From contig JAURHD010000019.1 of assembly GCA_030833445.1 (NCBI GenBank), forward strand, positions 1-49,661: DNA of 49,661 bases. The letters run 5' to 3'. Positions 8,484 to 23,341 of the stretch are shown here, piece by piece. The position numbers and the translations under genes were made by a program. Source of the stretch: Cephaloticoccus sp. (GTDB lineage: Bacteria; Verrucomicrobiota; Verrucomicrobiia; Opitutales; Opitutaceae). Each line of letters opens with the position of its first letter. Position 1 is the first letter of the stretch. The notes under the pieces are model-generated. The model was given only the letters and a program-made list of their open reading frames with translations, made no database searches and was not told the origin of the DNA.

Positions 8484-8505
8484 GTTCTAAACGCATAGTT
8501 TTGCC

Positions 8506-8537
8506 AACGGCCGCAGCCTCAAGCTGCGGCCGTTTTT
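8506..8537 (+). terminator. Intrinsic terminator of hppA
   Basis: AACGGCCGCAG at 8506-8516 pairs perfectly with CTGCGGCCGTT at 8524-8534 (11 bp) across a 7-nt loop, and the T run extends to 8537. It starts 22 bases after the hppA stop codon. Confidence 0.9.
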
Positions 8538-8588
8538 ATTGGGTGACCGCAAACAAACAGACGGCATAATTTCCCCAAGACCACATCC

Positions 8589-9401
8589 ATGCCTAACGCC
8601 GCCTTCGATCTCCCGGCTTATCTTAATCGCATCGGTTACAACGGGGAATGCCGACCGAATCTCGAGACTCTGCAGTCGCTGCACCAGCACCACGTGCAAG
8701 CAGTTCCCTTTGAAAACCTCAGCGTGCTACTGGGTGAACGGATATCGTTGGATCCGAAGGTGATCTCGGAGAAAATCATCGGTCAACGTCGCGGCGGATA
8801 TTGCTTCGAACAGATCACCCTGTTCCGAGAGGTGCTTCAACTCATCGGCTACCAGGTCACACCCTTGCTCGCGCGCGTGCGCTGGAAGGTGCCACCCGAG
8901 GTCAGGACTCCGCTCACCCACATGGTGTTACGCGTGGTCGTCGCCGACCAACCGTGGCTGGCCGATGTCGGCTTCGGAGCCATCGGGACACCAGCACCGC
9001 TGCGCCTCGACACCTCCAATGAGCAGCCAACCACTCATGAGCCACGCCGCATCATCTGCATCAAACATTTTTGCACGCACCAAGTCCGCATCGGCGAGGT
9101 GTGGCAGGACATCTATCAGTTCGCACAGACACCGCCCGCGCCCATCGACTTCGAACTGGGCAACTGGTATAGTTGCACCCATCCAAAGGCGCTGTTCGTC
9201 AATAATCTGATTGTCACGCGGGTAATCCCGGAGGGCCGTTACAGCATCTACAACCGTGAGTTCACATGGCGTGACCGTCAGGGCAAAGCCTCGATATCGA
9301 CCATCCGTTCAATGGGAGAGCTGCATAACCTCCTCCGTGAAAAATTCGGCCTGAATCTATCTGAAGAAAACAACCTAACAATTCCCTCGGCCCCTTGGTA
9401 A
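8589..9401 (+). CDS. nat: Arylamine N-acetyltransferase
   Basis: This 270-residue cytoplasmic enzyme transfers acetyl from acetyl-CoA to arylamines, hydrazines or related amines. The Cys-His-Asp catalytic triad is visible: C72 in RRGGYCFEQ, H111 in LTHMVLRV and D126 in WLADVGFG. The length is normal for the family. It follows hppA but is cut off from it by a strong terminator, so it is probably transcribed on its own. Some family members act in polyketide or amide-forming pathways, but nothing nearby suggests that here. The start at 8589 leads into the usual N-terminal YLNRIGY helix. Confidence 0.92.
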   Translation: MPNAAFDLPAYLNRIGYNGECRPNLETLQSLHQHHVQAVPFENLSVLLGERISLDPKVISEKIIGQRRGGYCFEQITLFREVLQLIGYQVTPLLARVRWKVPPEVRTPLTHMVLRVVVADQPWLADVGFGAIGTPAPLRLDTSNEQPTTHEPRRIICIKHFCTHQVRIGEVWQDIYQFAQTPPAPIDFELGNWYSCTHPKALFVNNLIVTRVIPEGRYSIYNREFTWRDRQGKASISTIRSMGELHNLLREKFGLNLSEENNLTIPSAPW

Positions 9402-9525
9402 GAGCCAATGCAGCGACCGGGGTTTGCCCTTCTCGCATACCAGTCAAGTTGGCTGTAATATAGATCAATCCCGATATGCCATAAGCAGATAATCCTCTTT
9501 TTATATCCTTTAGCCTCTGACCAAG

Positions 9526-9553
9526 TTTACAAAATGAGCGACTGGGTCATACT
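9526..9553 (+). promoter_or_regulatory. Possible promoter
   Basis: TTTACA at 9526-9531 and CATACT at 9548-9553 are spaced by 16 bases and resemble sigma-70 -35 and -10 boxes. If used, transcription would begin after ATG 9554 and the following gene would start at ATG 9614. This is a visual match only. Confidence 0.25.
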
Positions 9554-10408
9554 ATGGTTGCCCCCATAGAATTTGGGCCTAAAGTTCCCCGTAGCAGCCG
9601 ACCGCATCATAACATGTCCTTGCCCTCAGCGCCTTCCGCATTCCCGACGCAATTGCGCGGTATCTCGGCCGATTTTTCGGAAATTAGTCTGGGCCTTGAG
9701 GAAAAAGATCTCGGTTCCCTCACGGAAGAATCACTGATCGATTTATTGAAGCGATTCCTGGCCATCGATCCAGTAGATCTCATCGATGCCGACCCAGAGA
9801 TCATCATCACCGGTCGCCGCGGTCGCTATAGTGTCAAAAACAGCCACCATAAACTGACTTTGCGACCCGTAGCCGATCCCATGGCCGCTTTTGTCGAGCT
9901 GAGCGCTGAGGAAATCCCCTCCTGGATGGATCAAACGGACAGCTTATTGCAGCCGGAAGACCACACCTCGGAACGCAATCAGGCTATCCTCCTGATCCAT
10001 CAAAGATCGCCACGGCAGTATTACGTCGCCGCGCTCATGATCATCAGCCTGGGTATCTTTGGTGCCACGGTATATTATTCATTTCGCCCTGCCCCGATTA
10101 ATGACGAAGCCGAATATCAACCGGTCAAGAATCCCCAAAAAATCGCCACCCTCAATAAAATGGCCGTCGGGCGCTTTACCAATATCGACGCCAGTGTAAA
10201 AATTCTAGTGCAGGACAACAACCGGCTCGTTCTGATCAAACTCGACGGCCCGCAGCATCGCCAAAAAAATGAATCCACTCATTCCTACAGATTCATGACC
10301 AACGCCAAAGGAGAACCCGTCCTCTATACCTCCGAGATCGGCGTGATCATTCTGACCGACCAGTCCACCCTGCGCTATAACGGGGACACCTATCGACGGA
10401 CAAACTAA
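9554..10408 (+). CDS. Bitopic membrane protein of unknown function
   Basis: I do not recognise this 284-residue protein. The first ~170 residues look cytoplasmic, acidic and partly helical (SLTEESLIDLLKRFLAIDP). One transmembrane helix follows (YYVAALMIISLGIFGATVYY). The remaining ~95 residues would lie outside the membrane and look beta-rich. It ends four bases before the prepilin-like gene, so the two are almost certainly co-transcribed and may act together at the cell surface or in a pilus-like export system. ATG 9614 is an alternative start (MSLPSAPSAF). Confidence is high that it is a gene and low for any role. Confidence 0.75.
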   Translation: MVAPIEFGPKVPRSSRPHHNMSLPSAPSAFPTQLRGISADFSEISLGLEEKDLGSLTEESLIDLLKRFLAIDPVDLIDADPEIIITGRRGRYSVKNSHHKLTLRPVADPMAAFVELSAEEIPSWMDQTDSLLQPEDHTSERNQAILLIHQRSPRQYYVAALMIISLGIFGATVYYSFRPAPINDEAEYQPVKNPQKIATLNKMAVGRFTNIDASVKILVQDNNRLVLIKLDGPQHRQKNESTHSYRFMTNAKGEPVLYTSEIGVIILTDQSTLRYNGDTYRRTN

Positions 10409-10412
10409 ACTC

Positions 10413-11186
10413 ATGAAGTCATCTCTGAAAAATGCCTCTCGAAGAATCAAGGGCTTCACCTTGGTCGAAATTATGGTCGTGGTTACGATCATTGGCATAC
10501 TGGCAGCCCTGGCGATACCCTCCCTGCGGAGAATTCAACTCAAGGCCAAGGCAGAGGCCCTGATCAACGATTTGCGCGTCTATACCCAGGCATTCCATGG
10601 CTTCGCCATGACGAAGTCCTACTACCCTGACGATACCAGCAAAGGCATCATCCCGGATGGGATGCAGGTGTATCTGGGGGTGAAGTGGACTCAAACCACC
10701 CCCATTGGCGGGCTCTACGATTACGAATATCTAAAACGAGCCGGTGGCCAACTTTTCACCGCGGCCATCGCCATCGGGGACGACGGAGAAAACAAGGTGA
10801 GCCGGGATATGGATCTGCTCCTACTCATCGACAAAGAGATCGACGACGGGAATTTGTCCACCGGCCAATTTTTACTCGGGACCGGCAACACGCCCTTTTA
10901 CGTCGTGCAGATAAATGGCTATAATGCTGGCGCGCCAGTCGCCACGACACCACCGGCGGCGCCTGAATCCACCCCCACACCACCCGTTACAACTCCAGCA
11001 CCGGTGCCAGCACCAAATCCGGCACCGCCTGAGACCACGCCTCCTGATGCGCCAGTTGAGCCCTCTTCACCGGATGAGAAAGCCAAGAAGGAGAAGGAGG
11101 AGAAAGAAAAAAAGGAGAAGAAGGATAAAGAGGACAAGGAAAAGAAGGAGAAGGGAGATAAAGAGAAGAAGGACAAAGATAAGTAG
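10413..11186 (+). CDS. Prepilin-like protein with Lys/Glu-rich C-terminal tail
   Basis: The protein begins with a type IV prepilin/pseudopilin leader: a short basic stretch, then G14 followed by FTLVEIMVVVTIIGILAALA. Glu at position +5 of the mature form is present, so cleavage and N-methylation by a prepilin peptidase are expected. Residues 40-160 look like a minor-pilin or type II secretion pseudopilin globular domain. From about 170 comes a Pro/Thr/Ala-rich linker (APVPAPNPAPPETTP), then about 36 residues almost entirely K, E and D. Such a tail is unusual for a pilin. Pilin-like proteins with short heads are common in Verrucomicrobiota and Planctomycetes. No other pilus gene is nearby except the upstream membrane protein. 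Confidence 0.85.
   Translation: MKSSLKNASRRIKGFTLVEIMVVVTIIGILAALAIPSLRRIQLKAKAEALINDLRVYTQAFHGFAMTKSYYPDDTSKGIIPDGMQVYLGVKWTQTTPIGGLYDYEYLKRAGGQLFTAAIAIGDDGENKVSRDMDLLLLIDKEIDDGNLSTGQFLLGTGNTPFYVVQINGYNAGAPVATTPPAAPESTPTPPVTTPAPVPAPNPAPPETTPPDAPVEPSSPDEKAKKEKEEKEKKEKKDKEDKEKKEKGDKEKKDKDK
11071..11183 (+). repeat. Low-complexity purine-rich tract coding a K/E/D tail
   Basis: About 110 bases made almost only of AAG, GAG, AAA and GAT/GAC codons encode the tail of the prepilin-like protein. The coding strand is nearly pure purine, with motifs such as GAGAAGAAGGA repeated irregularly. Slippage could change its length between strains. Confidence 0.7.
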
Positions 11187-11379
11187 ATCGTCTTGGTCTT
11201 TCAGCGTCTCTGCATCGCTTTCGGGTGACGATAAATGCCGTCAACCAATCGATGTGACGATTCGTGAGTGAACACGGAAACGATCATCAAGGCAGGTCGC
11301 ACACTCCTAGCGCGCAAATCTATCCACTTTTAAGAGGAACGTTTGCCATTGATATCCCCTGCCGCTATTCACTCGTTGC

Positions 11380-12390
11380 ATGGAATACCGGAACTTCGGA
11401 CGCACAGGGATCAAAGTCAGCCCGCTCACCCTTGGGTGCATGATGTTTGGCGGCAAAACCAACCTCGAGGATACCAGCACGATCATTGATCGGGCAGTGG
11501 ATGCCGGGATCAACTGCATCGACACTGCGAACATCTACTCACGCGGCAAAAGTGAGGAATTCACCGGCGAAGCGCTCAAGCGCAACGGCAAGCGGTCCGA
11601 GGTGGTGCTCTGCACCAAAGTTCACGGTGCAATGCATGACACCGATCCCAACATGCGGGGCAACACCCGCCGTAATATCATCGAGCAATGCGACGCCAGT
11701 CTGAAGCGGCTCCAGACCGACTACATTGATCTCTACCAAATCCACCGCCCGCAGTCAGACGTGCCGATCGATGAAACCTTGCGCGCGATGGACGACCTCG
11801 TCCGCGCCGGCAAGGTGCGCTACACCGGCACCTCCACCTTCGCCGCCTGGCAGTTCCTCGAATCCCTTTGGTGCGCCAAGGAGCTTCATCTCACGCCCTT
11901 CTCCTCCGAGCAGCCGCCCTACAACCTCCTCGATCGCCGAATCGAACGCGAATTGCTGCCCATGTGCCGCACCTATGGCATCGCCACGCTGCCTTGGAGT
12001 CCCCTCGCGAGTGGCATCCTCAGCGGGAAATACCGCGCCGGCCAAAAAGCCCCGGCGGATTCCCGTTTTGCAAATGCCGGGGACAATGCCTTTCTCAAGC
12101 AACGCTGGTCGGATGGGTCCCTCAACGTAGTGGAGAAACTCATTCCCCTCGCCGAGGCGAAGGGCCTTACCTTATCGCAATTCGCGCTCGCCTGGACCAT
12201 GCAGCAACCCGGCATCACCAGTCCGATCATCGGCCCGCGCACACTGGAACAGTTGGAAGATAATCTGAAGGCGATCGGGGTAACCCTAACCGACGCCGAA
12301 CTTAAGGATGTAGATGAAATCGTGCCCCCGGGCACCTATACCTCGGTTTACTACGAGGCAGATTTCGGCCCGCATCTCCACCGCTGGTAA
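11380..12390 (+). CDS. Aldo/keto reductase
   Basis: A 336-residue TIM-barrel NADPH-dependent oxidoreductase. The family tetrad is visible as D48 and Y53 (CIDTANIYSRG), K80 (LCTKV) and H122 (LYQIHRP). SPIIGPRTLEQLEDN near the C-terminus is the usual cofactor-binding region. It resembles the AKR group of voltage-gated channel beta subunit/YajO-like enzymes. Physiological substrates of this group are mostly unknown. The next gene, ten bases downstream, is a second, distinct aldo/keto reductase, and the pair probably forms an operon. Confidence 0.93.
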   Translation: MEYRNFGRTGIKVSPLTLGCMMFGGKTNLEDTSTIIDRAVDAGINCIDTANIYSRGKSEEFTGEALKRNGKRSEVVLCTKVHGAMHDTDPNMRGNTRRNIIEQCDASLKRLQTDYIDLYQIHRPQSDVPIDETLRAMDDLVRAGKVRYTGTSTFAAWQFLESLWCAKELHLTPFSSEQPPYNLLDRRIERELLPMCRTYGIATLPWSPLASGILSGKYRAGQKAPADSRFANAGDNAFLKQRWSDGSLNVVEKLIPLAEAKGLTLSQFALAWTMQQPGITSPIIGPRTLEQLEDNLKAIGVTLTDAELKDVDEIVPPGTYTSVYYEADFGPHLHRW

Positions 12391-12399
12391 ATTTAAATC

Positions 12400-13389
12400 A
12401 TGCAATTTCGCAACTTCGGTAAGCATCCATTCCAGTGTTCGGAAATCGGATTCGGAGCCTGGGCCATTGGCGGAGCCTGGGGCGACCAAGCGGATTCGGA
12501 CTCCCTCGCGGCCCTGAACCGTGCGCTCGACCTCGGCTGCAACTTCATCGATACCGCCGCCGGTTACGGCAACGGCCGGAGTGAACGGCTGATCGCCAAG
12601 GTGCTCAAGGAGCGCACCGCGGCTGGTAAAAAGGAAACGGTCTTCGTCGCCACCAAGACTCCGCCAGACACCGGCAACTGGCCACCCTCCCCCTATGATC
12701 TGGCCGATGCTCGTTATGCCGAAACTTACCTGCGCGCTAATATCGCCGAGCGGCTGGCGTGCCTCGGCACTGCTAAACTTGATTTGTTGCAACTACACAC
12801 GTGGACCCGGGCTTGGAACCGCAATCCGACGCCGTTTAAAATTCTGCGCAAATTGCAAAGCGAAGGCCTGGTCGGATTGATCGGCGTATCCACGCCGGAG
12901 CATGATCAAAACTGTGTCATCGATCTGATGCGCGGGGGTTGGATCGATAGCGTGCAGGTTATCTACAATATCTTTGAACAGGAACCCGCCGCGGAATTGC
13001 TCGATGTCGCGCAGGAATGCGGGGTCGGTATCATCGTGCGGGTCGCCTTTGACGAAGGCTCTCTTACCGGCAAGTTCACGGCGCAAACCCAGTTTGCCAA
13101 GGATGATTTCCGCACGGGTTACTTTGCGGGTGATCGACTGGTCCGCACCGTCAACCGGGTGGAAGCAATCCGGACCGATTTGACTGACAGTGGCTACACG
13201 ATGGCGCAGGCCGCCTTGAAATTCGTGCTGGCTCATCCGGCCGTATCGGTGGTGATCCCCGGCATTCGCAATCTGAGCCAAGCCGAGGCCAATTGCGGGG
13301 TGAGTGATCTGCCGGCGATGCCTGTTACGGTGGTGCAGAGATTACAAAAACATGCCTGGCGGCGGGCCTTTTGGTATGGCGGTAAATAG
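12400..13389 (+). CDS. Aldo/keto reductase, second of a tandem pair
   Basis: A 329-residue aldo/keto reductase with D51 and Y56 (FIDTAAGYGNG), K86 (VATKTPP) and H133 (LLQLHTW) as the expected catalytic residues, and SVVIPGIRNLSQAEAN as the C-terminal cofactor segment. It is only distantly similar to the preceding reductase, so this is not a recent duplication. A ten-base gap suggests co-transcription. The substrate is unknown; sugar aldehydes or ketones are typical for such bacterial enzymes. Confidence 0.93.
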   Translation: MQFRNFGKHPFQCSEIGFGAWAIGGAWGDQADSDSLAALNRALDLGCNFIDTAAGYGNGRSERLIAKVLKERTAAGKKETVFVATKTPPDTGNWPPSPYDLADARYAETYLRANIAERLACLGTAKLDLLQLHTWTRAWNRNPTPFKILRKLQSEGLVGLIGVSTPEHDQNCVIDLMRGGWIDSVQVIYNIFEQEPAAELLDVAQECGVGIIVRVAFDEGSLTGKFTAQTQFAKDDFRTGYFAGDRLVRTVNRVEAIRTDLTDSGYTMAQAALKFVLAHPAVSVVIPGIRNLSQAEANCGVSDLPAMPVTVVQRLQKHAWRRAFWYGGK

Positions 13390-13444
13390 TCCAAACGGGT
13401 CGCCGGCAGATTGGTGCCAAGTCTAACCCAAGCTATACTTTCCC

Positions 13445-13813
13445 ATGCCGACGGCACTACTGCTGGCTCCTCTGTTTCTGCTCTTTGAGCTATGGCAGTT
13501 GGTGATTTGCGAACGCTATGTGGGCATCAGACAAATAGAACGCAATGGGGACCCGCGCTCGTTAGGACCCAACGAAGGGGTAGCTTTCGGATGGACGGCC
13601 AGTTTGGTCTTCTACTGGACCTGGATGCTGGTGCTCCTACTGCAGTCCCAAGGGCGGGTGCATGGAGTCTGTCTGCTGGCAGTCAGTTTACTTGGCTATG
13701 GATTAAGGCGAAGCTGCGGCCTCAAATGGCTGCTTGTGGTTCTGACCTTTGAGGGGGCGGTGCGCATCGGTTTGTTGTTTTCTCTCTGTGTCTACGTATG
13801 GCGACGGCTCTAG
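13445..13813 (+). CDS. Small membrane protein of unknown function
   Basis: 122 residues with three or four hydrophobic helices (about 3-20, 47-68, 74-86 and 93-118) and a polar loop between the first two (YVGIRQIERNGDPRSLGPNE). I do not recognise a family. It sits 55 bases after the aldo/keto reductase pair, on the same strand. Hydrophobicity pattern and a clean open frame support a real gene. Confidence 0.55.
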   Translation: MPTALLLAPLFLLFELWQLVICERYVGIRQIERNGDPRSLGPNEGVAFGWTASLVFYWTWMLVLLLQSQGRVHGVCLLAVSLLGYGLRRSCGLKWLLVVLTFEGAVRIGLLFSLCVYVWRRL

Positions 13814-13905
13814 TAGGTGGGGTAACTACGTAGCCTGAATTCACGTAATACTACCGATGCGGCGGGGCGGAGACGTTTGGTATGCTGGGTGGGTTGATTA
13901 CCACC

Positions 13906-14169
13906 ATGCGCACAAAATTGATTGCCTTCACGTTACTGGTCGCGGGCCTCGGTCTCACCGGTTGCCAAACCAAAACCGCCCGGGTTCCTGCGCTCGCAGT
14001 ATATAGCGCCGAGGACCTGAATCCCCGAAAGCTCTTCGGTGGCAGCATTGGTTCTCAAATCACGGCGACAACCAAGCCAGCCAACGTCCCCGCCACCAAC
14101 GAATCCGACAGTCTGGCCCACTCACTCGAGCGCGAATACTTGATGTGGAAGCTGGCCAACCGCTCCTAA
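13906..14169 (+). CDS. Small lipoprotein
   Basis: From ATG 13906 the protein starts MRTKLIAFTLLVAGLGLTGC, a textbook lipoprotein signal with Cys20 as the acylated residue; the upstream ATG at 13882 would spoil it. The mature part is only about 67 residues and ends with a short helix (HSLEREYLMWKLANR). The function is unknown. It ends six bases before the EF-hand protein, so the two are likely co-expressed. Confidence 0.7.
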   Translation: MRTKLIAFTLLVAGLGLTGCQTKTARVPALAVYSAEDLNPRKLFGGSIGSQITATTKPANVPATNESDSLAHSLEREYLMWKLANRS

Positions 14170-14175
14170 GCCATC

Positions 14176-14790
14176 ATGCGCGTTTTCTACGGCCTCACTC
14201 TCCTGCTAATCGCGTTCAGCACCACGGGGAGGGCTCTCCCCGATGCGACGGCGCTGCAGCAGTCGTTTGACCGCTTGGACCAGAACCACAATGGCAGCAT
14301 CAGTTTGGTGGAGTGGGACCAGCATGCCTTCGCTTTTTTCAAGGCGACGGACCGCAACAATGACAATGAGATTGATCCCACGGAGATCACCGATGACACC
14401 GAAACGGTAAATAGTTTTTCCCGTTCGGACGCGAAACGGGATGGACGACTCGGCATAGAAGAATTCATGCAGTTGCGTCGTCAGCTTTTCAAGGTGGCCG
14501 ACATTCACGCCAACGACTCAATTGATCGGACGGAGTTCGAGCTATACAACCTGATCAGTGAGACCGGTTGGGATGATGCAAATACCAATGGTCGACTCGA
14601 TTTGGCGGAAATCCGCGGCAGCCTGCAGGAATTGGTCAAACTGGCCGACCAGGACCAAGACGGTATACTTTCCCCGGAAGAGGCTAATTTCCTCTCATCG
14701 GAAGCCTTCACCCAATTGACGGCTGACGGCCCGTTGAGTCCAGCGCGACTTTACACCCATTACCGTGATATGCTTATGGGCAAACAGTAG
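14176..14790 (+). CDS. Secreted EF-hand calcium-binding protein
   Basis: A 204-residue protein with an N-terminal signal peptide (cleavage likely near residue 20) and six EF-hand loops. Four are canonical D-x-(N/D)-x-(N/D)-x loops at 35-46, 59-70, 134-145 and 158-169. Two are degenerate, at 85-96 (Lys at position 3) and 109-120. It therefore should bind calcium outside the cytoplasm. Similar EF-hand proteins are common in Planctomycetes and Verrucomicrobiota, where their roles are mostly unknown. It sits in a run of small envelope proteins. Confidence 0.88.
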   Translation: MRVFYGLTLLLIAFSTTGRALPDATALQQSFDRLDQNHNGSISLVEWDQHAFAFFKATDRNNDNEIDPTEITDDTETVNSFSRSDAKRDGRLGIEEFMQLRRQLFKVADIHANDSIDRTEFELYNLISETGWDDANTNGRLDLAEIRGSLQELVKLADQDQDGILSPEEANFLSSEAFTQLTADGPLSPARLYTHYRDMLMGKQ

Positions 14791-14834
14791 CGTTCACCCA
14801 GCCTGCGAACCTACCCTGCTGAAAAATATACCCC

Positions 14835-14861
14835 GCCAGTCTGCAGCTGACTGGCAATTTT
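14835..14861 (+). terminator. Probable terminator after the EF-hand gene
   Basis: GCCAGTC at 14835-14841 pairs with GACTGGC at 14849-14855 around a 7-nt loop and AATTTT follows. The stem is short, so termination may be partial. It lies 44 bases after the EF-hand stop and ahead of the next lipoprotein gene. Confidence 0.5.
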
Positions 14862-14887
14862 GGGGGATATCTTCAAGTTGTATCACC

Positions 14888-15592
14888 GTGAAGCTACTCT
14901 CTTTCATTCTGGTCACTGGCGCACTCATGCTGGGTGGTTGCGCAACCACCTATCAGGTTCAGGTCAGTGCTCTCGCCGACCCTGAACTCGCCACAGGAAA
15001 CCGCCTCTTTCAATTCACCCAAGCCGAAGAGAGCAAAGCCGAACCCGGTGACCTCCAATATCGGGAGGTGCTGCGTAATCTCAGTGGCATGCTCTCCGCT
15101 CATGGCTACGTGCCGGCAGCGAGATCCGAAGTGCCTGGCTATACCCTGCTGGTGGACTATGGAGTCGGTGAACCCGTAACCAAGACGTATACCTTTGCGA
15201 CCCCAGTCTACGCCGAATTGGGCGGCGGCTACACCACCCTGACCAAAGAAACCAAGGACGCCGCGGGCAAAGTAACCAAAACCTCGGAAACGGTGCGTGT
15301 CCCCGGTCGCTACGAACGCGTGGGCACCGACGTCAGCATCAACTCCGTAACCACCTACCGGAAATACCTGCAGGTTTCAGCGCGACTGCGCCAAACCGGA
15401 CAATCGGAAACCCGTGGCCCGGAAGCCTGGACGGTCACCGCCGTGGTCGATGACGAACGCACGGATCTACGGGCTGCCCTGCCCTTGTTGGTTGAAGCGA
15501 TGGCCCCTTACGTGGGCAAAGATACGCATCAGGCAATTGTCGTGGAGTTCACCGAAAAAGACGGTCAGTTCGAACGAGTCGAACGACGTTAG
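14888..15592 (+). CDS. Lipoprotein, DUF4136-like
   Basis: I place the start at GTG 14888 because it gives a clean lipoprotein signal (VKLLSFILVTGALMLGGC, Cys18). The longer frame opening at 14765 overlaps the EF-hand gene and the hairpin and buries the signal. The mature 216 residues show the pattern of DUF4136-type envelope lipoproteins: a YREVLRNLSGMLSAHGY helix (entries predicting an element of higher instance number in time), then a beta strand TLLVDYGVGEP, and a C-terminal DLRAALPLLVEAMAPYVG helix. No function is established for the family. Its stop lies five bases from that of a convergent small gene. Confidence 0.75.
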   Translation: MKLLSFILVTGALMLGGCATTYQVQVSALADPELATGNRLFQFTQAEESKAEPGDLQYREVLRNLSGMLSAHGYVPAARSEVPGYTLLVDYGVGEPVTKTYTFATPVYAELGGGYTTLTKETKDAAGKVTKTSETVRVPGRYERVGTDVSINSVTTYRKYLQVSARLRQTGQSETRGPEAWTVTAVVDDERTDLRAALPLLVEAMAPYVGKDTHQAIVVEFTEKDGQFERVERR

Positions 15593-15597
15593 GCGAT

Positions 15598-15924
15598 TCA
15601 GCGCAAGAAGCGCGGACGGATCACCTTGGTTTCGGCGGTCGCAAAGGTTTGCGCAAAAAACTCTTGGGCCGATCCGATCAAATTTGCGCATTTGCCGTAA
15701 TTCCCCGACCAGGAGTTCGGCAGGCAAATGCGCTTGATCACGCCTTTGCCCACCTTGTCCGGGGCATCCCGATCCGGGACCAGCTCCATTGAAAAACGCG
15801 GATCAACCGTATGCACGATATAGTGCTTCGTTCCGGCCTGCTCGTCGCGCTGGATACGCAAAAAATGGCTGAAGCTCATTGACGAAACTACGGTGTGGCG
15901 GATGCCGTTGGGTGACAATCCCAT
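15598..15924 (-). CDS. Hypothetical protein
   Basis: A 108-residue protein I do not recognise, with no signal peptide or membrane segment. It has a predicted beta strand (KHYIVHTVDPRFSMELV), two cysteines (ICLPNSWSGNYGKC) and a basic C-terminus. It lies alone on the minus strand between two plus-strand envelope-protein genes. ATG 15879 is a possible later start. Confidence 0.45.
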   Translation of the reverse strand: MGLSPNGIRHTVVSSMSFSHFLRIQRDEQAGTKHYIVHTVDPRFSMELVPDRDAPDKVGKGVIKRICLPNSWSGNYGKCANLIGSAQEFFAQTFATAETKVIRPRFLR

Positions 15925-15994
15925 TTACCAGCTGCTTTGTCCTTGAGAATACAGCGCTCCCGGCACAGATAATCCGCGCGTCCGTTGCCATCCC

Positions 15995-17137
15995 ATGAGC
16001 ATGTTACCCTCTGATACCCCGCGTTTGCCCAAATGGCCTTTTCTCGTTGGTGATGCCGCGTTGTTGGGCGGAGCCATCCTGCTGGCCACCCGCAGTCCCC
16101 AGCCCTACTCCAATCCAGTCATAGTGACGATCGCCGTGTGCGTCGCGCTCGCCTCGATTTTGGGCGTCATCCCTTTTCTGGCCGACTACGCACATCGACA
16201 AGATGAAGCTCTGGACGAACGCCAGCGCGGACTCGAAGCCCTCACCCGCACCATCGCGAACTCGGCCGAGCAAATCAGTGTGGCCGCCACCAGTCTGCAC
16301 GAGTTCAGCGAATCTTCCCGGCTACCATCCACCCCGGCGGTCACGCTGCCGACTGCGCAAATTGAGGAGCAACTTGCCAACATGGCGGAGCAACAGATCA
16401 AAGGTCAGGCTGAAACCAGCGAGTTGTTGCGTCAGGAACTCAAAACCCTGCGCAATTCTCTGCGCGAACAGATTGCCGCTTTAAAATCCACGCTGGTGGT
16501 CACTCCGGTCCTCGCTGCGGTGCCGGCAGCACAGTCGGTGGAGACGAAATCCAGCGAATCCCCGGCGGTCCCGATCGAACCGGAGCTCAAAGCCAAACCA
16601 GCTCCGACAGAAATCACCTCCCCGACACCGTCACCTGAGCCGACCAGTGCAACGCCAGTCGAACCAGTTATCGAACCTCCGGCACAAACCCCGGTCGAGA
16701 GTGAGCCCAAATCCGCCAAAAAAGCTCCGGCCGTGAAAAAGGCCAAGGTCAACGAACCAGAAGTGACGAAAGAAACGGCATCCGCAAAAGCAGCGTCATC
16801 ATCTGATGAGTTGCCCCTTTCCGGCGATGACGCCGAACCTGATTTTTCTGCGAAAAGCAACCAGCGGATGGCGGCGGATGGAGCCACCCGCCTCTTGGTC
16901 ACGGCCTATATCGGGATCGGGAACCGGCTATTCATTCGCGGTGATGGCGCCGGCCTGAGCCCGGACAAGGGCGTGCCACTCCAGTTTGTTTCCATTGGCA
17001 AATGGCAGTGGGAAACCAAGGAAGCCACCGGAGCGATCCGGGTAAAACTTTACAAGAACGATGAGATCGAATGCGTCTCGCTCGGCGAGCTCACCCTCGA
17101 CTCCGGCCACCAGGCGGAAGTTTCCGCCTCGTTCTAA
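15995..17137 (+). CDS. Membrane-anchored coiled-coil protein with Pro/Glu-rich linker
   Basis: 380 residues in four parts. Two transmembrane helices lie at about 15-30 and 40-65. A helical coiled-coil segment (about 68-165, RQDEALDERQRGLEAL onward) follows. Next is a low-complexity Pro/Ala/Glu/Lys linker (about 170-275). A C-terminal beta-rich domain of about 85 residues ends it (RLLVTAYIGIGNRLFIRGDG). No family is recognised. The architecture suggests an inner-membrane protein that carries a ligand-binding domain on a long flexible arm. It converges with the glycosyltransferase gene downstream, with an 11-base gap. Confidence 0.7.
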   Translation: MSMLPSDTPRLPKWPFLVGDAALLGGAILLATRSPQPYSNPVIVTIAVCVALASILGVIPFLADYAHRQDEALDERQRGLEALTRTIANSAEQISVAATSLHEFSESSRLPSTPAVTLPTAQIEEQLANMAEQQIKGQAETSELLRQELKTLRNSLREQIAALKSTLVVTPVLAAVPAAQSVETKSSESPAVPIEPELKAKPAPTEITSPTPSPEPTSATPVEPVIEPPAQTPVESEPKSAKKAPAVKKAKVNEPEVTKETASAKAASSSDELPLSGDDAEPDFSAKSNQRMAADGATRLLVTAYIGIGNRLFIRGDGAGLSPDKGVPLQFVSIGKWQWETKEATGAIRVKLYKNDEIECVSLGELTLDSGHQAEVSASF

Positions 17138-17148
17138 TCAAGCTTCCC

Positions 17149-18378
17149 TCAAGGCATCACGGTCAGTGGCGGATTCACCTTCGGCGGGGGAAATGCCTGC
17201 CGATCCAAGTCAGCCTGCGCCACTTCATTGGCCAAGGAAACCAATTCATCGATGAGCAAAGTCGGGTCTTCCTCGTAACGTAATTGCAGGAATTTCTCCC
17301 GGTCAGATTGAAAGGATGCAGGATCACGCATCCACTCACCGATGATGCCGGCGAAGTCCGCCGCTGACTCGATTTTTTTGGAATCGGCCCCGTTGCGGAA
17401 GAATTTCCAGGTCAACTCCTCCTGAGGCATAATCCCGCCAAACGCGTTGAAAATGATGGGACAACGGAAATTCAGGGCCTTGGCACAAGTGGTCGTGCCG
17501 CCCCGGGTGACAATCACATCGCTCACCTGCAATAACAGATGAACAATTTCCGAGTAGCCCTCGATGTAGCAGTTGAACTCGGGATGATTCGCCCGCCAAT
17601 GAATGAGGTCATTGTAAGCCTGTTTGTTGTGGCCGCAGATCACGACCGCCTGACACCGGTCGGCATAACGCAAGAGCGTCGGCAACAAGGCGAAATGGTT
17701 GTTGGCGCCGTTACCACCGGTGGCGAGGAACACCGTAAAGCGGTCGGACCGGAGGCCGAGTCGCTTTTCCAGATAGGCGCCACGTTGCTGGGCGGAAATG
17801 CGCTCGAGATGGGCCACCGGCCGCATGAGATAACCCCGCACCAAGGCACGTTCGGCCGGGATGCCCTTTTTAACTGCATAATCGCGAGCGGTGGGCGTCC
17901 GCGAGAAATACAAGTCCACTGAAGGTTCAATCCAATTGCGCGAATAGCCCCAGCCACCGGAAAACTCACCGCAATAGGTCGCCGTGCGCACTTGCGCCTC
18001 CCCCAGGACATCCCGCGCCAGTTGGAAATAGCCGCGATTGAGGCAATCATGCACACTCAAGACCAGATAGGGCCGGTATTCCTGCAAGACCTGCAAATAA
18101 AAATGCCGGCCAAAGGTGACCGAGCTGCGGTTCAGAAAACTCAGGGCCTCGACCACGGTATAAAATATCTTATGCATCCAGGGCGACCGGCGCTGAATCC
18201 AGTTGTAGATATTTACGCCCGTGCGGTTGATGACGGAGGAATTCTCCAACATCTGCTCAATGCGCACATCCACATCATGGCGGTAGAGTTGGAAGCACCA
18301 CTCCGCAAAGGCCTCGGCCCGGGCGTCGTGTCCGCCGCCGGTGCTGGATGTCAGAACAAGAATGCGGACTTTGGACAT
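17149..18378 (-). CDS. MGDG synthase-like glycosyltransferase
   Basis: 409 residues of the GT28-type fold related to plant/bacterial monogalactosyl- and glucosyl-diacylglycerol synthases. The N-terminal lipid-acceptor loop STGGGHDARA (about 11-20) is present, as is a C-terminal UDP-sugar site (LATGGNGANN, then VIVTRGGTTTCAKAL). Members act at the inner face of the membrane, adding a hexose to a lipid acceptor. It starts two bases after the SDR gene stop, as the last gene of the ketoacyl-synthase operon, which ties it to a product made by the acyl-chain enzymes. Whether the acceptor is diacylglycerol or the product of this cluster is inference. Confidence 0.85.
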   Translation of the reverse strand: MSKVRILVLTSSTGGGHDARAEAFAEWCFQLYRHDVDVRIEQMLENSSVINRTGVNIYNWIQRRSPWMHKIFYTVVEALSFLNRSSVTFGRHFYLQVLQEYRPYLVLSVHDCLNRGYFQLARDVLGEAQVRTATYCGEFSGGWGYSRNWIEPSVDLYFSRTPTARDYAVKKGIPAERALVRGYLMRPVAHLERISAQQRGAYLEKRLGLRSDRFTVFLATGGNGANNHFALLPTLLRYADRCQAVVICGHNKQAYNDLIHWRANHPEFNCYIEGYSEIVHLLLQVSDVIVTRGGTTTCAKALNFRCPIIFNAFGGIMPQEELTWKFFRNGADSKKIESAADFAGIIGEWMRDPASFQSDREKFLQLRYEEDPTLLIDELVSLANEVAQADLDRQAFPPPKVNPPLTVMP

Positions 18379-18380
18379 GG

Positions 18381-19214
18381 TTAGAGATTAAAATAGCGGG
18401 CCTGAATCCGGCGCTTCAACCGCAGGGAACCAAAACGGGCGATGAAGGGTGCCACTACCGCTTGAAAAAAACGTCCGCACCGCACGGTCCCACTGCGTTG
18501 CCGGCGCAAGGCACGCTGCAATGCCGCCGCCGCATGTGCGGGCGTCGGCCCCGATGCCATCATCTGCTCGAAAGCGGACCACGTGCGTTGCATGGCCGGA
18601 GTTTCGTTTTGATTGGGTCGGAGCACCGAAGCTTCGAAATCGGTGCGGTAGTCTCCCGGACGCACATCGAGCACGATCACCTTGGAACCGGCCGTCTCGA
18701 TCAGCAGGCTTTCGTTCAGGGCCGTGAGTCCGGCCTTGGCCATGTTGTAGGCGCTTTGGTATGGCAGGGGAAACTCGGCGGCCAGGGAGGAAATGTTGAC
18801 CAATGCAGCTGAGGTAGCCCGATCCCGCAGCACCCGCATGGCGGCATGGGTCAACCGCGCAGTATTGACCAGCATGACTTCAAGTTGATCCTGCCACACG
18901 GAAAACTCTGTGGCGGCAAAATCGCCAAAGGCACCGTAACCGGCGTTGTTGATCACGATGTCAAATCCTCCCGCAGCCTGATTGGCGGCCAAGAATATCC
19001 GTTCCGCCGCAGCTCCATCGCGCAGGTCCAGGGCGACCGCGGTAAATCCGGCAGTTTTCTCCAAGTCGGATAAGCGTTCAATCCGCCGTGAAGTGCCCCA
19101 AACTTGCACTCCCTCCTGCAGCAACATGTCGGCAAACGCCCGGCCCAAGCCCGTGCTCACCCCGGTGACAAAGGCTGTGCGGTATAAAGAGGATAACGGA
19201 AGTGCGTTGGGCAC
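18381..19214 (-). CDS. SDR family reductase, probable 3-ketoacyl reductase or related
   Basis: A 277-residue short-chain dehydrogenase with TGVSTGLG (cofactor loop), NNAGYG, the catalytic Ser in VNISSLA and YNMAK for the Tyr/Lys pair. The C-terminal part is longer than in FabG and basic (FGSLRLKRRIQARYF). It starts one base after the ketoacyl synthase stop, so translation is coupled. From the context I infer that it reduces a 3-ketoacyl-ACP made by that synthase. SDRs of this subgroup also reduce other carbonyls, so the substrate is not settled. Confidence 0.88.
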   Translation of the reverse strand: MPNALPLSSLYRTAFVTGVSTGLGRAFADMLLQEGVQVWGTSRRIERLSDLEKTAGFTAVALDLRDGAAAERIFLAANQAAGGFDIVINNAGYGAFGDFAATEFSVWQDQLEVMLVNTARLTHAAMRVLRDRATSAALVNISSLAAEFPLPYQSAYNMAKAGLTALNESLLIETAGSKVIVLDVRPGDYRTDFEASVLRPNQNETPAMQRTWSAFEQMMASGPTPAHAAAALQRALRRQRSGTVRCGRFFQAVVAPFIARFGSLRLKRRIQARYFNL

Positions 19215-19215
19215 G

Positions 19216-20478
19216 TTAGGTGGCGCGTTTCAGCACCAAGCTGACATTGGCCCCACCAAATCCACTGCTGTTATTCAGCACGACATTCGGTTGGGCCGGC
19301 AAGGTTGAGCGGATGATGTTCAAGCCCTCGCATTCAGGATCCAAGTTGGTGATGTGAGCCGAGCCAGGCATAAAGCCATCCCGAATGGCGATGGCACAAA
19401 AGGCACTTTCCATTGCGCCAGCCAAAGACAAGCCGTGCCCAGTCAACGCCTTGGTGCTGCTGATAGCCGGGCGCGCGGCCGGGGTTTTGAAGAAGGCCTT
19501 CAAGGCCCGGGCTTCAGAAATATCCCCGATCGGCGTGGAAGTTGCGTGGGCATTGATGTAATCAATCGATTCCGACGACGTGTTCGTAGCCTTGAGCGCA
19601 TTTGCCATGGCCACGCGCAAACCTTCACCATCGGGATGAGAGATCGCCACATTGTGACCATCAGAGGCCTGGCCCCAACCCGCAAATTCACCGTAGACCT
19701 TGGCTCCGCGTCGCATTACCTCGTCCTCGGTTTCCAACACCAATACTGCGGCGCCGCCGGTGCCGACAAATCCGTCCCGTGCCGCATCAAACGGGCGCGA
19801 GGCCATGACCGGATCTTTCTGAATGGACAAGGCTCGCATCCCGGCAAACGGGAGAATGCTGTCCACATTGCCATCCTCGGCGCCGACCACAAACATCCGT
19901 TTCTGACGTCCGAGCACGAGATCGTCATAGGCATAGCCCATCGCATGAGAGGAGGAAGCGCAGGCAGAGGAAAATCCGCAGGAAGCCCCCTTGATCTTGA
20001 AATGGGCTACCAAGTTAAAATTCAGCGTGCCGGATATCGCCGCCACAATACCCAAAGGGGAACACCGCATCGGACCCAAAGTATGCATGCGATTCAGCAT
20101 GTAGCCCATCAACTGGGGTGAACCGCCTGATGCTGCATAAAGTCCGGTCTGCTCATTGGAAACCTCAGCCTCCGTCAAACCCGCATCTGCCACCGCCTGC
20201 TGCATGGCACACCATGCGTAGACCCCATTCGGCGCCATGCCGCGGAGGATTTCGCGTTTGATGGTGTAGGCTGACGGAAAGGTCCAGTCTTCCGGATCAT
20301 TGGAATCCGTCACGAAATCCTTCACCGGCGCGGCCACTTTGACCGGAATACTTGCATCCGCAAAGGGAGGATACGTCACAACCCCATGCCGGAGTTCACG
20401 CAAGCTGGTCGTTACAGTTTCGACATCATTGCCTATGCTGGTGATCAGTCCGAGTCCGGTGATAAATACTCTGGGCAT
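19216..20478 (-). CDS. Beta-ketoacyl-ACP synthase (FabF-like)
   Basis: 420 residues of the elongating (KAS I/II) condensing-enzyme fold. The full Cys-His-His set is present: C173 in FSSACASSSHAMG, H311 in NAHATSTPIGD and H348 in STKALTGHG, with the conserved Lys343. It therefore should catalyse decarboxylative Claisen condensation of malonyl-ACP onto an acyl-ACP. The sequence departs from housekeeping FabF (a long insertion around 55-75 and GLSLAGAMES after H348), pointing to a specialised pathway. It lies between the ACP-dehydratase fusion (151-base gap) and the SDR (one-base gap). Polyene and aryl-polyene condensing enzymes are alternative relatives. Confidence 0.9.
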   Translation of the reverse strand: MPRVFITGLGLITSIGNDVETVTTSLRELRHGVVTYPPFADASIPVKVAAPVKDFVTDSNDPEDWTFPSAYTIKREILRGMAPNGVYAWCAMQQAVADAGLTEAEVSNEQTGLYAASGGSPQLMGYMLNRMHTLGPMRCSPLGIVAAISGTLNFNLVAHFKIKGASCGFSSACASSSHAMGYAYDDLVLGRQKRMFVVGAEDGNVDSILPFAGMRALSIQKDPVMASRPFDAARDGFVGTGGAAVLVLETEDEVMRRGAKVYGEFAGWGQASDGHNVAISHPDGEGLRVAMANALKATNTSSESIDYINAHATSTPIGDISEARALKAFFKTPAARPAISSTKALTGHGLSLAGAMESAFCAIAIRDGFMPGSAHITNLDPECEGLNIIRSTLPAQPNVVLNNSSGFGGANVSLVLKRAT

Positions 20479-20629
20479 TATTTTAAACAGTCTGAAACGA
20501 GGAAGACACCGCCGGCCGGTTGAGGTCCAAAAAACAGCGGTCCAGCATGGAAGGCATATAACCCGCCGTGGTCAACGCGAGAGGTGGGGCAAATTCAGTC
20601 CCCGCTTCAAAGCTCCGATTAGATTTTAA

Positions 20630-21598
20630 TCAGGAGTTTACGGCCTTGCGCACCGGAGCAGCCTCAGGCGTGGCCTTGACAGCCGCAACGTTAACCGCCG
20701 ATTCAGCCGGCTGCGCGGGGATTTCCGCAAACCCGAAAGTCAGGGTGATTTCCTCGACAATTGCAGCTTTCTCCTGGCCGACCCGGATCGCACCTTCAAA
20801 CGTTGCCAAGGGCATCTTGGCGCGCTTGGGCTTGATCGACATGGTCAGGATATCACCGGGACGGCAGACCCGATGGGCGCGCACGCCTTCGCATCCGGTG
20901 AAGAAAATGGTGGATGGATTGACCATCTTGCCGGGTTCGGGGGTCATACCTTCGAGCAAATATAGCACCGCCAGTTGACCCAGAGCTTCCAACATAATGG
21001 AAGCCGGCATCACGGGATTATCCTTAAAATGACCCTGCAGGAAGAACTCCTGGCCAGTAATCTTGTATTTGGCGTTGGCTCCGCTGGAACTGACTGAACC
21101 CTCATTGAGGAACAGAAACGGAGGCTGTATCGGCATTACTGTCGCGATATGCTCAATCGGAAGAAACTTGGTGGGCTCTGGCAGAGGCAGGCCGCGCACC
21201 TTGCAGTCAATGAAAGTCTTTACGTCACCCACGGTCCGCAGGTTGCGCAACTCCTCATTATTAATAGCCATATGGAGCACCTCTTCGACGAGGATAACGA
21301 TCTCCATCATCGTCAACGAATCGACCCCCAGATCCTCAATCAGACGCAGATCATCGTCCGCATCCTTGAGCTTCATGCGCAAATCCGGTTCTACAAAACG
21401 CTCGATTACGCCGATCACCACGGCAGGCAAATGCTCGGGATTACCCGTCCTGCGATATTGCACTGCGGCCTCGAAGGTCGAGGGTGAGCACCGTTTGAGT
21501 GATTCACGCAGAGCGGCTTCGTCCTCCGGAGTGAACGATTTGGCCTCTTGCGCGAACGGTTTATTGGTGCCCGTGCTGGGTTGAACTGCTTCTGGCAT
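20630..21598 (-). CDS. Acyl carrier protein-3-hydroxyacyl-ACP dehydratase fusion
   Basis: A single 322-residue chain joins two functions. Residues about 55-135 are an acyl carrier protein with the phosphopantetheine site S94 in LGVDSLTMMEI. Residues about 145-300 are a FabZ/FabA-type hotdog dehydratase. The catalytic pair is present as His190 (FFLQGHF) and Glu204 (MPASIMLEALGQL). The usual PHR of FabZ near PFLLV is PIQ here. An N-terminal ~50-residue extension and a C-terminal Ala/Pro/Val-rich tail flank the domains. This carrier would be loaded by a phosphopantetheinyl transferase encoded elsewhere. It is the first gene of the minus-strand operon with the ketoacyl synthase, SDR and glycosyltransferase. 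Confidence 0.85.
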   Translation of the reverse strand: MPEAVQPSTGTNKPFAQEAKSFTPEDEAALRESLKRCSPSTFEAAVQYRRTGNPEHLPAVVIGVIERFVEPDLRMKLKDADDDLRLIEDLGVDSLTMMEIVILVEEVLHMAINNEELRNLRTVGDVKTFIDCKVRGLPLPEPTKFLPIEHIATVMPIQPPFLFLNEGSVSSSGANAKYKITGQEFFLQGHFKDNPVMPASIMLEALGQLAVLYLLEGMTPEPGKMVNPSTIFFTGCEGVRAHRVCRPGDILTMSIKPKRAKMPLATFEGAIRVGQEKAAIVEEITLTFGFAEIPAQPAESAVNVAAVKATPEAAPVRKAVNS

Positions 21599-21797
21599 TG
21601 TGTGTCACTTGTATGTTATGCGGCCTCGTAATGTAAACCCCTTTCTTAGGGCCCACTATAGCCAATATGGTCTTCTCCAAAATCGTATTGCTCCGTAATT
21701 TGCATCGAAAAATGTGGCCGTAGCAGACGCTTGCTAGCAGGGCTCATTCCGACTCAATTGCCTCCCTGTCGCCCGGCTTACCGCAAGGTCAATCCAC
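21599..21797. promoter_or_regulatory. Divergent intergenic region of the acyl/glycosyl cluster
   Basis: 199 bases separate the start of the ACP-dehydratase gene (minus) from that of the GT4 gene (plus). Both transcription units must be driven from here. The half next to the ACP gene (about 21605-21715) is AT-rich. A short palindrome TGCTAGCA lies near 21730. No clear promoter or operator could be assigned. Confidence 0.35.
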
Positions 21798-22940
21798 ATG
21801 CAGAATCTTCCGCATATCTTCATAACCCACGAATTTTATCCGCGGCGCGGGGGCATCGCGACCTTCGTGGAGGAGATGGCGGTTGCGGCCACCGGGATGG
21901 GGCTAAGCGTGGAGGTCTGGGCCCCGGCGGCTCCGGCTCACATCAAGGAAAAATCCTGGCCGTTTAGTTTGCGGCGCCTCCCCCTCAGCGGATCCCACGA
22001 CCTGATCTGCCAGCTCAGACTGGCGCGGGACATCATCCGCCATCGGCGCCGGTTACGTCATGCGGTAGTCTATCTCGTGGAACCCGGGCCGATGCTGACC
22101 CTGATGTGGTTGCAGTTCTTTCACGCCTTCAGACCCAATCGCCTCCTACTGACTTTTCACGGCTCCGAGATCCTGAAGTTTCAGCAAAATCCACTCATCC
22201 GTTCCATGGCCAGTAAACTGATAGCGCATGCGGAACGCATCAGCACCCTGACCACATACACCCGAAATCTGCTCGGTGAATCGTTTCCCGATGCACTGGC
22301 CAAGACCGTGCTGACGCCGGGCGCGTTGCGGTCAGATTTAACGGAATCAAGTTCCATCACCGACAAGTCGACCGATCGGCTCGTGATTTTGACGGTAGGC
22401 CGACTGCATCCGCGCAAAGGCCAGAGGGAAACGCTCGCAGCACTGGCTACATTGCCGGCGGCCGTGCGAGTGAAGTTGGAATACTGGATCGTCGGCACGG
22501 CCAGCAAGGGCCACTACGAGACCAAGCTCAAGAAACTCGCTGATCAATCTGGTCTGGTGGTGAAATTTCTGGGTGACCTGCCGGATGAAGAACTGAGCGG
22601 CATTTATGCTCAGGCTAACTTGTTTGCCCTAACCAGTATCGCCTACAAATCCAGCATTGAGGGATTCGGTTTGGTCTATCTTGAAGCATCAGCACATGGT
22701 TTACCCATCGTGGCCCATGATATCGGAGGAGTGCGTGAGGCAGTGATCGACGGTGAGACCGGCCTCTTGGTCCCGCCAGACCAGCCCGAACAATTGACCC
22801 GGGCTTTTCAGCGATTGATCGGCGATGCGGAGCTCCGGCGGCGATTGGGTGAATCGGGCCGGACTTGGGCCCGGCAAACCAACTGGAAAAAATCGGCTGA
22901 ATTGCTTTTTGCGCCAATCACGACTGAGTTAGCCCCATGA
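21798..22940 (+). CDS. GT4 family glycosyltransferase
   Basis: 380 residues with the GT-B fold: N-terminal HEFYPRRGGIATFVEEMA (acceptor-side glycine-rich loop) and a C-terminal donor domain with VGRLHPRKGQRETLAAL and the EX7E motif EGFGLVYLEASAHGLPIVA, ending in GVREAVIDGETGLLVPP. GT4 enzymes retain the sugar configuration and often decorate lipids or polysaccharides. Its stop overlaps the start of the thioesterase by four bases (ATGA), so the two are translated together. It is divergent from the ketoacyl-synthase operon, which encodes another glycosyltransferase. Donor and acceptor are unknown. Confidence 0.92.
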   Translation: MQNLPHIFITHEFYPRRGGIATFVEEMAVAATGMGLSVEVWAPAAPAHIKEKSWPFSLRRLPLSGSHDLICQLRLARDIIRHRRRLRHAVVYLVEPGPMLTLMWLQFFHAFRPNRLLLTFHGSEILKFQQNPLIRSMASKLIAHAERISTLTTYTRNLLGESFPDALAKTVLTPGALRSDLTESSSITDKSTDRLVILTVGRLHPRKGQRETLAALATLPAAVRVKLEYWIVGTASKGHYETKLKKLADQSGLVVKFLGDLPDEELSGIYAQANLFALTSIAYKSSIEGFGLVYLEASAHGLPIVAHDIGGVREAVIDGETGLLVPPDQPEQLTRAFQRLIGDAELRRRLGESGRTWARQTNWKKSAELLFAPITTELAP

Positions 22941-23341
22941 TCACTTCGCGCAGCCAAGTCACAGTTCGCTACGCCGAAACCGATATGATGGGCATCGTCT
23001 ATCACGCCAACTTCCTGCCGTGGTTTGAAATCGGCCGGACCACACTTTTGAAGGAGCAGGGACTCCCCTACCGCGAATTGGAGGCCCAAGGCTATCGGCT
23101 GCCAGTCTTGGAAATTTCCGCCAAATATCTTCGGCCGGCACTGTATGATGACACGTTGACGATCATCACCACGATCAAGGAAAAGCCCCTGCTGCGCATC
23201 CGCATCAGTTATGAAGTTCGCCGGGGGCATGAATTGCTCGCGACCGGCGAAAGCAGTCACGCCTTTGTCGACCGGGAAGGTAAACCCGTGCGCCCGCCAC
23301 CGATGTTCGTTACCAAGATGAACAGTCTTTTTGCCCGCTAG
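22937..23341 (+). CDS. Hotdog acyl-CoA/acyl-ACP thioesterase (YbgC/4HBT type)
   Basis: 134 residues of the 4-hydroxybenzoyl-CoA thioesterase family. The active-site segment is RYAETDMMGIVYHANFLPWF with Asp16. It releases acids from CoA or ACP thioesters. It is translationally coupled to the GT4 gene, and homologues recur in polyene and unusual-lipid clusters, so I infer that it releases or edits the acyl product of the divergent operon. A general housekeeping YbgC role is the alternative. Its TAG stop lies in CTAG at 23338-23341, which also provides the stop of queG on the other strand. Confidence 0.9.
   Translation: MITSRSQVTVRYAETDMMGIVYHANFLPWFEIGRTTLLKEQGLPYRELEAQGYRLPVLEISAKYLRPALYDDTLTIITTIKEKPLLRIRISYEVRRGHELLATGESSHAFVDREGKPVRPPPMFVTKMNSLFAR

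Follow-up and report, generated by a model that had tools for sequence, protein, structure and literature searches.

A conserved gene cluster of Opitutaceae as the probable first half of a glycosphingolipid pathway

Which lipid is built by six closely packed genes of Cephaloticoccus sp. (Verrucomicrobiota, Opitutaceae)? The genes lie at positions 17149-23341 of a stretch of 49,661 nucleotides (the window), which is the entire contig C10 of a 72-contig genome of 2.9 Mb named G000, and the cluster is well within the contig ends. (C-numbers denote contigs of G000, G-numbers the genomes examined and L-numbers gene neighbourhoods.) A first-pass annotation, made from the letters alone, had read the genes as a dedicated, unusual glycolipid pathway or possibly a polyene system. 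We consider it probable that the window encodes the first half of a pathway to glycosphingolipids, lipids familiar mainly from animals and plants, in which a dedicated, dissociated acyl-building module would feed a serine palmitoyltransferase (SPT) encoded on another contig, with reduction and glycosylation to follow.

The six genes and their conservation

Four of the genes are on the minus strand. In the order of transcription they encode an acyl carrier protein (ACP) fused to a FabZ-type dehydratase (20630-21598, 322 amino acids), a beta-ketoacyl-ACP synthase (KS; 19216-20478, 420 amino acids), a short-chain dehydrogenase/reductase with a GTG start (SDR; Pfam adh_short; 18381-19214, 277 amino acids), which we propose to be a 3-ketosphinganine reductase, and a GT28 glycosyltransferase related to MGDG synthase and processive diglucosyl-diacylglycerol synthase (17149-18378, 409 amino acids). 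Divergent from the fusion gene, across the 199 bases that separate the two operons (21599-21797), the plus strand encodes a GT4 glycosyltransferase recognized by Pfam (21798-22940, 380 amino acids) and a YbgC/FadM-type hot-dog thioesterase (TE; 22937-23341, 134 amino acids). Pfam and NCBIfam profiles back each domain of the six proteins; the open reading frames, order, strands and domain types first annotated all stand. The tight coupling claimed for them holds for GT28/SDR (gap of 2 bases), SDR/KS (1 base) and GT4/TE (overlap of 4 bases), but the fusion gene is 151 bases away from that of the KS and is therefore less tightly coupled.

The fusion protein consists of an extra helical hairpin (residues ~24-51), the ACP (~54-135, with S94) and a FabZ-type hot dog (~144-292, with H190 and E204). 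In its AlphaFold2 model (pLDDT 85.5) the hairpin precedes the ACP, and the top match of this model in Foldseek is FabZ (E 6e-12). An alignment of 27 of the 47 fusion sequences, from which, as from the other alignments, rows with an internal stop codon (e.g., L063, L069, L077 and L087) were excluded, shows S94, H190 and E204 kept in 27 of 27 and the hairpin conserved as LKRCSPET.EAA..FR. An N-terminal stretch resembling this extension is also present in a stand-alone ACP encoded on C13 of G000 (L090, 6253-6660), whose gene adjoins one for a 187-residue protein that has no Pfam match.

The gene order was followed in relatives with a scan of named genomes for the fusion, the best 80 of 392 relatives being taken as named loci, 59 of which had enough flanking sequence to be evaluated. 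The titles of these best 80 are all Opitutaceae, Opitutus, Opitutae/Opitutia or Verrucomicrobia-level except that of L179 ("bacterium"). The exact order TE-GT4-fusion-KS-SDR-GT28 is found in 40 of the 59, a conservation that the first-pass annotation had proposed to look for; of the other 19, 17 are complete but for the SDR, and two (L142, L178) show just TE-GT4-fusion. Within the family of the window all six genes are together in 14 of 23 neighbourhoods, four more fusion-bearing genomes of the family being outside the sample. The six-gene order exceeds what is expected by chance.

Among 286 genomes of the class the fusion is present in 58: as a single matched stretch in 54, five of which (G020, G038, G039, G092, G169) hold one internal stop codon, as adjoining halves in G122, G213 and G246, and as halves on separate contigs in G281. 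In a sample of the phylum, 50 of 387 genomes match the fusion at E 1e-30, all of them of the window's class or nearer; for 317 further genomes of this sample the class is not listed, and the match in G057 spans the dehydratase half only.

The KS was first described as FabF-like. It is a ketoacyl synthase, but it scores slightly higher with the FabB (KAS I) profile of NCBIfam than with that of FabF (340 versus 328 bits), and the same side is taken by its best PDB chains (FabB 279 bits, FabF 220 bits) and by its identity to the E. coli enzymes (39.7% to FabB, 37.6% to FabF). In a tree of 32 of the 48 cluster rows, 16 having been dropped to thin close relatives, a single clade (SH-aLRT 100) unites the 32 cluster KS with 12 paralogues that are nested among them; it neighbours E. 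coli FabB (SH-aLRT 97) and is apart from the FabF of the class. All 48 cluster KS keep the catalytic residues C173, H311, K343 and H348. Of 76 genomes, 24 have this kind of KS (at least 398 bits; best other KS 244.5 bits), among them every one of the 19 with the SPT described below; of the five without SPT, three (G075, G009, G044) have paralogues only.

Could the genes belong to housekeeping or redundant fatty acid synthesis? The KS, ACP and dehydratase are of the type II (FAS II) kind, and the cluster has its domains and catalytic residues in common with FabB, FabF, FabZ and ACP. The cluster differs from FAS II in its separate KS clade, in the fusion of ACP to FabZ, in the conserved N-terminal helical extension and in its patchy distribution (58 of 286 genomes, whether the fusion is whole or in two halves). 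G000 has, moreover, a separate fabG-acpP-fabF set on C12, to whose FabF the KS is only 37% identical, and a housekeeping role is very improbable.

An aryl-polyene or other polyene pigment we consider equally improbable. In the absence of an enoyl reductase, a KS, ACP, dehydratase and SDR could yield a conjugated chain, and antiSMASH has flagged an arylpolyene region for a strain of Opitutales (PMC12193912). But AMP ligase, MMPL exporter and acyltransferase are absent among the six genes (the part of the window scanned with Pfam and NCBIfam profiles), as had been noticed before, and the KS is on the FabB side in a tree that held no aryl-polyene KS. Because of this placement and of the linkage of the cluster to SPT the polyene reading was set aside; the six genes give it no support.

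Further condensing enzymes are found elsewhere in G000. A second KS, 55% identical to that of the window, is encoded together with a stand-alone ACP on C72 (L094, 9161-10840); similar paralogues occur in several Opitutaceae, mostly as a subclade of their own. On C33 (L093) an OleA-like (17038-18072) and an OleB-like protein (18045-18956) were identified by eye, as were, within 8001-18956, a FabZ-like protein, an enoyl reductase-like SDR, two CrtI-like proteins and, upstream, a divergent KS. These genes probably specify a hydrocarbon pathway with its own fatty acid enzymes. The long-branched KS of C33 and one from C55 are placed unsurely in the tree.

Serine palmitoyltransferase and the second half of the cluster

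Near the cluster there recurs in relatives a gene for an alpha-oxoamine synthase, for which the best NCBIfam model is SPT. Its orthologue in G000 is located on C55 (27872-29059) and is 56% identical to the copy in L066; the other match in G000, on C12, groups with Kbl. The nearest PDB chain is the SPT from Sphingobacterium (3a2b; 328.6 bits, 42% identity over 363 columns). The SPT motif is present around the lysine binding pyridoxal phosphate, where the sequence reads GSLSKSLASTGGF in the cluster SPT and GTFSKSLASLGGF in 3a2b. In the tree the cluster SPTs (24 rows, one a duplicate) form a single clade (SH-aLRT 100), which sides with the known SPTs, away from BioF and Kbl, with an SH-aLRT of 88, below the mark of 95. 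The genome that harbors the window also harbors, on C55, an alpha-oxoamine synthase that groups with known SPTs and is predicted to be one. A different SPT-like kind, likewise on the side of SPT in the tree, was seen in G162, G259, G199 and G086 (L234-L237), genomes of other families of the class that are without the fusion.

Three GT4 genes accompany the SPT of C55 (L099): GTc at 8640-9788, GTa at 11057-12076 and GTb at 12073-13323. In other Opitutaceae (L037 and others) both halves form the single row TE-GT4-fusion-KS-SDR-GT28-GTb-GTa-SPT-GTc, all ten genes being found in 19 of the 80 named loci. Fifty named loci extend 9.5 kb or more downstream, and 29 of them contain an SPT match. The separation seen between C10 and C55 recurs in both congeners examined (G108 and G198) and is thus not an assembly break in one genome. 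The dedicated glycolipid pathway of the first-pass annotation fits the conserved cluster, the non-housekeeping KS and the GT28 and GT4 enzymes that travel along; the window, however, would carry only half of the pathway, SPT and three GT4 being encoded elsewhere.

SPT can also directly precede the acyl module. The three genes of the row SPT-fusion-KS, on one strand, are 18 and 14 bases apart in L080 and 136 and 35 bases apart in L081. The same row is found in L082 (G235), where the SPT match (10453-11681) is split over frames by a broken gene or an assembly error, so that the three genes are in one row in three families, with SPT intact in two. Genes for outer-membrane efflux proteins (OEP) lie near the SPT in L080 (2914-8193, together with a MacB-like permease) and in L066 (213-1631); they possibly encode an exporter.

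Counted over the class, with the SPT group taken at 50% identity or more (53 of 286 genomes; partial in G182 and G235), fusion and SPT occur together in 51 genomes, the fusion only in seven, SPT only in two and neither in 226 (Fisher 3.7e-46). The association also holds inside families (Mantel-Haenszel z 6.2 for the 11 families entered), and no more than 20 kb separates the two in 26 of the 51 genomes. The two SPT-only genomes, G061 (L089) and G160 (L255), carry near SPT a KS and an ACP that is without the dehydratase.

Proposed reactions and their alternatives

The reactions, with their substrates, order and product, that we infer from these genes are the following. A dedicated acyl chain would be built on the ACP of the fusion by this protein and the KS, together with housekeeping FabG and FabD and probably an enoyl reductase. 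The SPT of C55 would condense this acyl thioester with L-serine to 3-ketosphinganine, which the SDR would reduce to sphinganine. After N-acylation by a further enzyme the GT28 protein would attach the first sugar; the head group would then be extended by the GT4 enzymes, of which one is encoded in the window and three next to SPT. The thioesterase might edit or recycle acyl chains from the ACP.

The acyl module has a KS and a dehydratase but no enoyl reductase of its own. The dehydratase product, trans-2-enoyl-ACP, could be handed straight to SPT, yielding sphingosine-type (4E) bases without a desaturase, since the double bond C2=C3 of the chain would end up as C4=C5 in the base. We regard this variant as improbable; if true, 4E bases would arise by stopping fatty acid elongation one step early. 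Handing over 3-hydroxyacyl-ACP would lead to 5-hydroxy bases.

The GT28 protein scores 26 bits with Pfam MGDG_synth (cut-off 25), has MGD1 (4wyi, E 1.1e-11) as its nearest PDB relative and is placed after the SDR or after the KS in relatives; we propose that it glycosylates a lipid, either the sphingoid base or the ceramide. Outside the family of the window, too, the class has a divergent GT4 gene (L065-L067, L075-L078). The thioesterase scores 82.3 bits with TIGR00051 (cut-off 68.7) and has D16 and H23 kept in 20 of 20 cluster copies.

In Sphingomonas a sphingolipid takes the place of lipopolysaccharide in the outer membrane, and five glycosyltransferases suggest a large head group here. Such a replacement was dropped because LpxC is present in G000 (E 3e-98), as it is in 273 of the 286 class genomes; of the readings considered it has the slightest chance of being correct.

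The SDR had been taken at first as the reductase of the acyl set. That a reductase is present was right, but its function is more likely that of a 3-ketosphinganine reductase than that of a ketoreductase in the acyl module. In G276, G241, G208 and G261 (L247-L250) the row is SDR-GT28-GTb-GTa-SPT, with the SDR 3.6-3.7 kb from SPT and with fusion and KS elsewhere; the company of SPT and GT28 disfavours a function in the acyl module. The SDR is 13.8 kb from SPT in G132 and does not adjoin it in G113, G203, G127 and G271. Five SDR orthologues from other families score 129-162 bits with the NCBIfam model for KdsR (cut-off 400), which ranks first for two of them (L078, L075) and third, third and sixth for the others. 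Y156 and K160 are kept in 34 of 34 sequences, a set that includes one unrelated SDR, that of L094. In 9 of 11 genomes chosen for their SDR-less fusion loci an SDR homologue (38-46% identity) is encoded elsewhere. Taken together, the evidence favours a step after SPT.

Is a sphingoid base made at all? Alternatively, KS, fusion, SDR (as ketoreductase) and thioesterase would make a special fatty acid, GT28 and GT4 would glycosylate a lipid containing it, and SPT would be a mere neighbour. Several findings speak for this and against a sphingolipid. Seven of the 58 genomes that have the fusion or its halves, with the KS, lack this SPT; of the seven, G034 and G045 are incomplete and G113, G122, G169, G213 and G281 are 97-100% complete, so that the fusion-KS part can exist without SPT. 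In L057, L058, L062 and L064, all Opitutaceae, GT4 and thioesterase remain with fusion-KS, SDR and GT28 being elsewhere, and in L055 and L056 (G203, G127) the KS was not seen adjoining the fusion. The SDR of the window scores alike with KdsR (94.8 bits) and FabG (94.0 bits). In the 17 SDR-less named loci, where the spacing between KS and GT28 is merely 35-219 bases, SPT is still in the row in 10; the SDR is truly absent from these, so that another reductase must serve there. At E 1e-20 an SDR orthologue is absent from G064 and G042, the other two of the 11 genomes.

The remaining adverse points concern SPT and ceramide formation. The copy of L066, the one scanned, scores 398 bits with the NCBIfam SPT model, far below the cut-off of 640, and SPT is outside the window, its link to the cluster in G000 being drawn from relatives. 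No ceramide synthase was found in G000, the Caulobacter CerS not being among the proteins searched for; nor was a homologue of YghO, in a search that had no positive control and with the role of YghO as a ceramide synthase being a guess.

Against SPT as a mere neighbour stand the presence of the fusion in 51 of the 53 SPT genomes, with KS and ACP near SPT in the other two, the SPT-fusion-KS rows and the travelling of SDR and GT28 with SPT in L247-L250. We therefore consider a glycolipid pathway without a sphingoid base unlikely and prefer the glycosphingolipid pathway.

Known systems and neighbouring genes

To our knowledge a KS and an ACP-FabZ fusion adjoining SPT are not known from the sphingolipid producers Bacteroides and Sphingobacterium. 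It is to this type that the cluster is otherwise similar: 3a2b is the nearest PDB SPT, and the SDR orthologues of the cluster resemble the SDR kind of these organisms. The reductase of the sphingolipid pathway in Bacteroides is BT_0972 (PMC9278070).

Two ways of supplying SPT with acyl chains have been described. In Pseudomonas fluorescens MYb115 the iterative type I polyketide synthase of the PfSgaAB(C) system makes C24-C28 sphinganines (PMC12134224). Like the cluster, this system has in one neighbourhood a dedicated chain builder, a proposed reductase for 3-ketosphinganine and an SPT that belongs to the alpha-oxoamine synthases; its chain builder is a single type I synthase, whereas in the cluster KS and ACP-dehydratase are two separate proteins and glycosyltransferase genes are included. 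In Caulobacter and E. coli B a ready fatty acid is loaded by AasR onto AcpR, the special ACP of rhodobacterial SPTs, and CerR is a proposed dehydrogenase (PMC9386255, PMC11324152). There too a specialised ACP, encoded beside SPT, carries the acyl chain, but the AcpR/AasR/SPT operon of E. coli B is without KS and dehydratase, both of which the cluster has. In G000 no orthologue of AasR was found (best match to the E. coli B protein 44 bits, 27%) and none of CerR (merely a partial match of 33.5 bits).

Read as a set for bacterial sphingolipid synthesis whose dedicated chain builder is dissociated and which includes glycosylation genes, the cluster is new in form, but not categorically new. If the proposal is true, a dedicated dissociated synthase is a third acyl supply to SPT beside acyl-ACP synthetase and type I polyketide synthase, a defined set of Verrucomicrobiota are probable glycosphingolipid makers, and the ACP-FabZ fusion together with SPT provides a genetic handle for tracing these lipids through environmental genomes.

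Spt-like proteins have been published for Verrucomicrobiota, namely for 22 metagenome-assembled genomes from the Black Sea (PMC11334938). A literature search, outside of which were most subscription papers, found no paper linking these proteins with a KS plus ACP-FabZ fusion and no direct report of sphingolipid clusters in this phylum. A mention of glycosphingolipids in PMC5673642 was set aside, the passage concerning their breakdown.

Two minor observations concern neighbouring genes. In L071 (family f10) two radical SAM proteins are encoded near the cluster (6990-8255 and 12496-14088), one of them matching B12-binding kinds. In the window itself positions 14176-14790 encode a protein with several EF-hand repeats.

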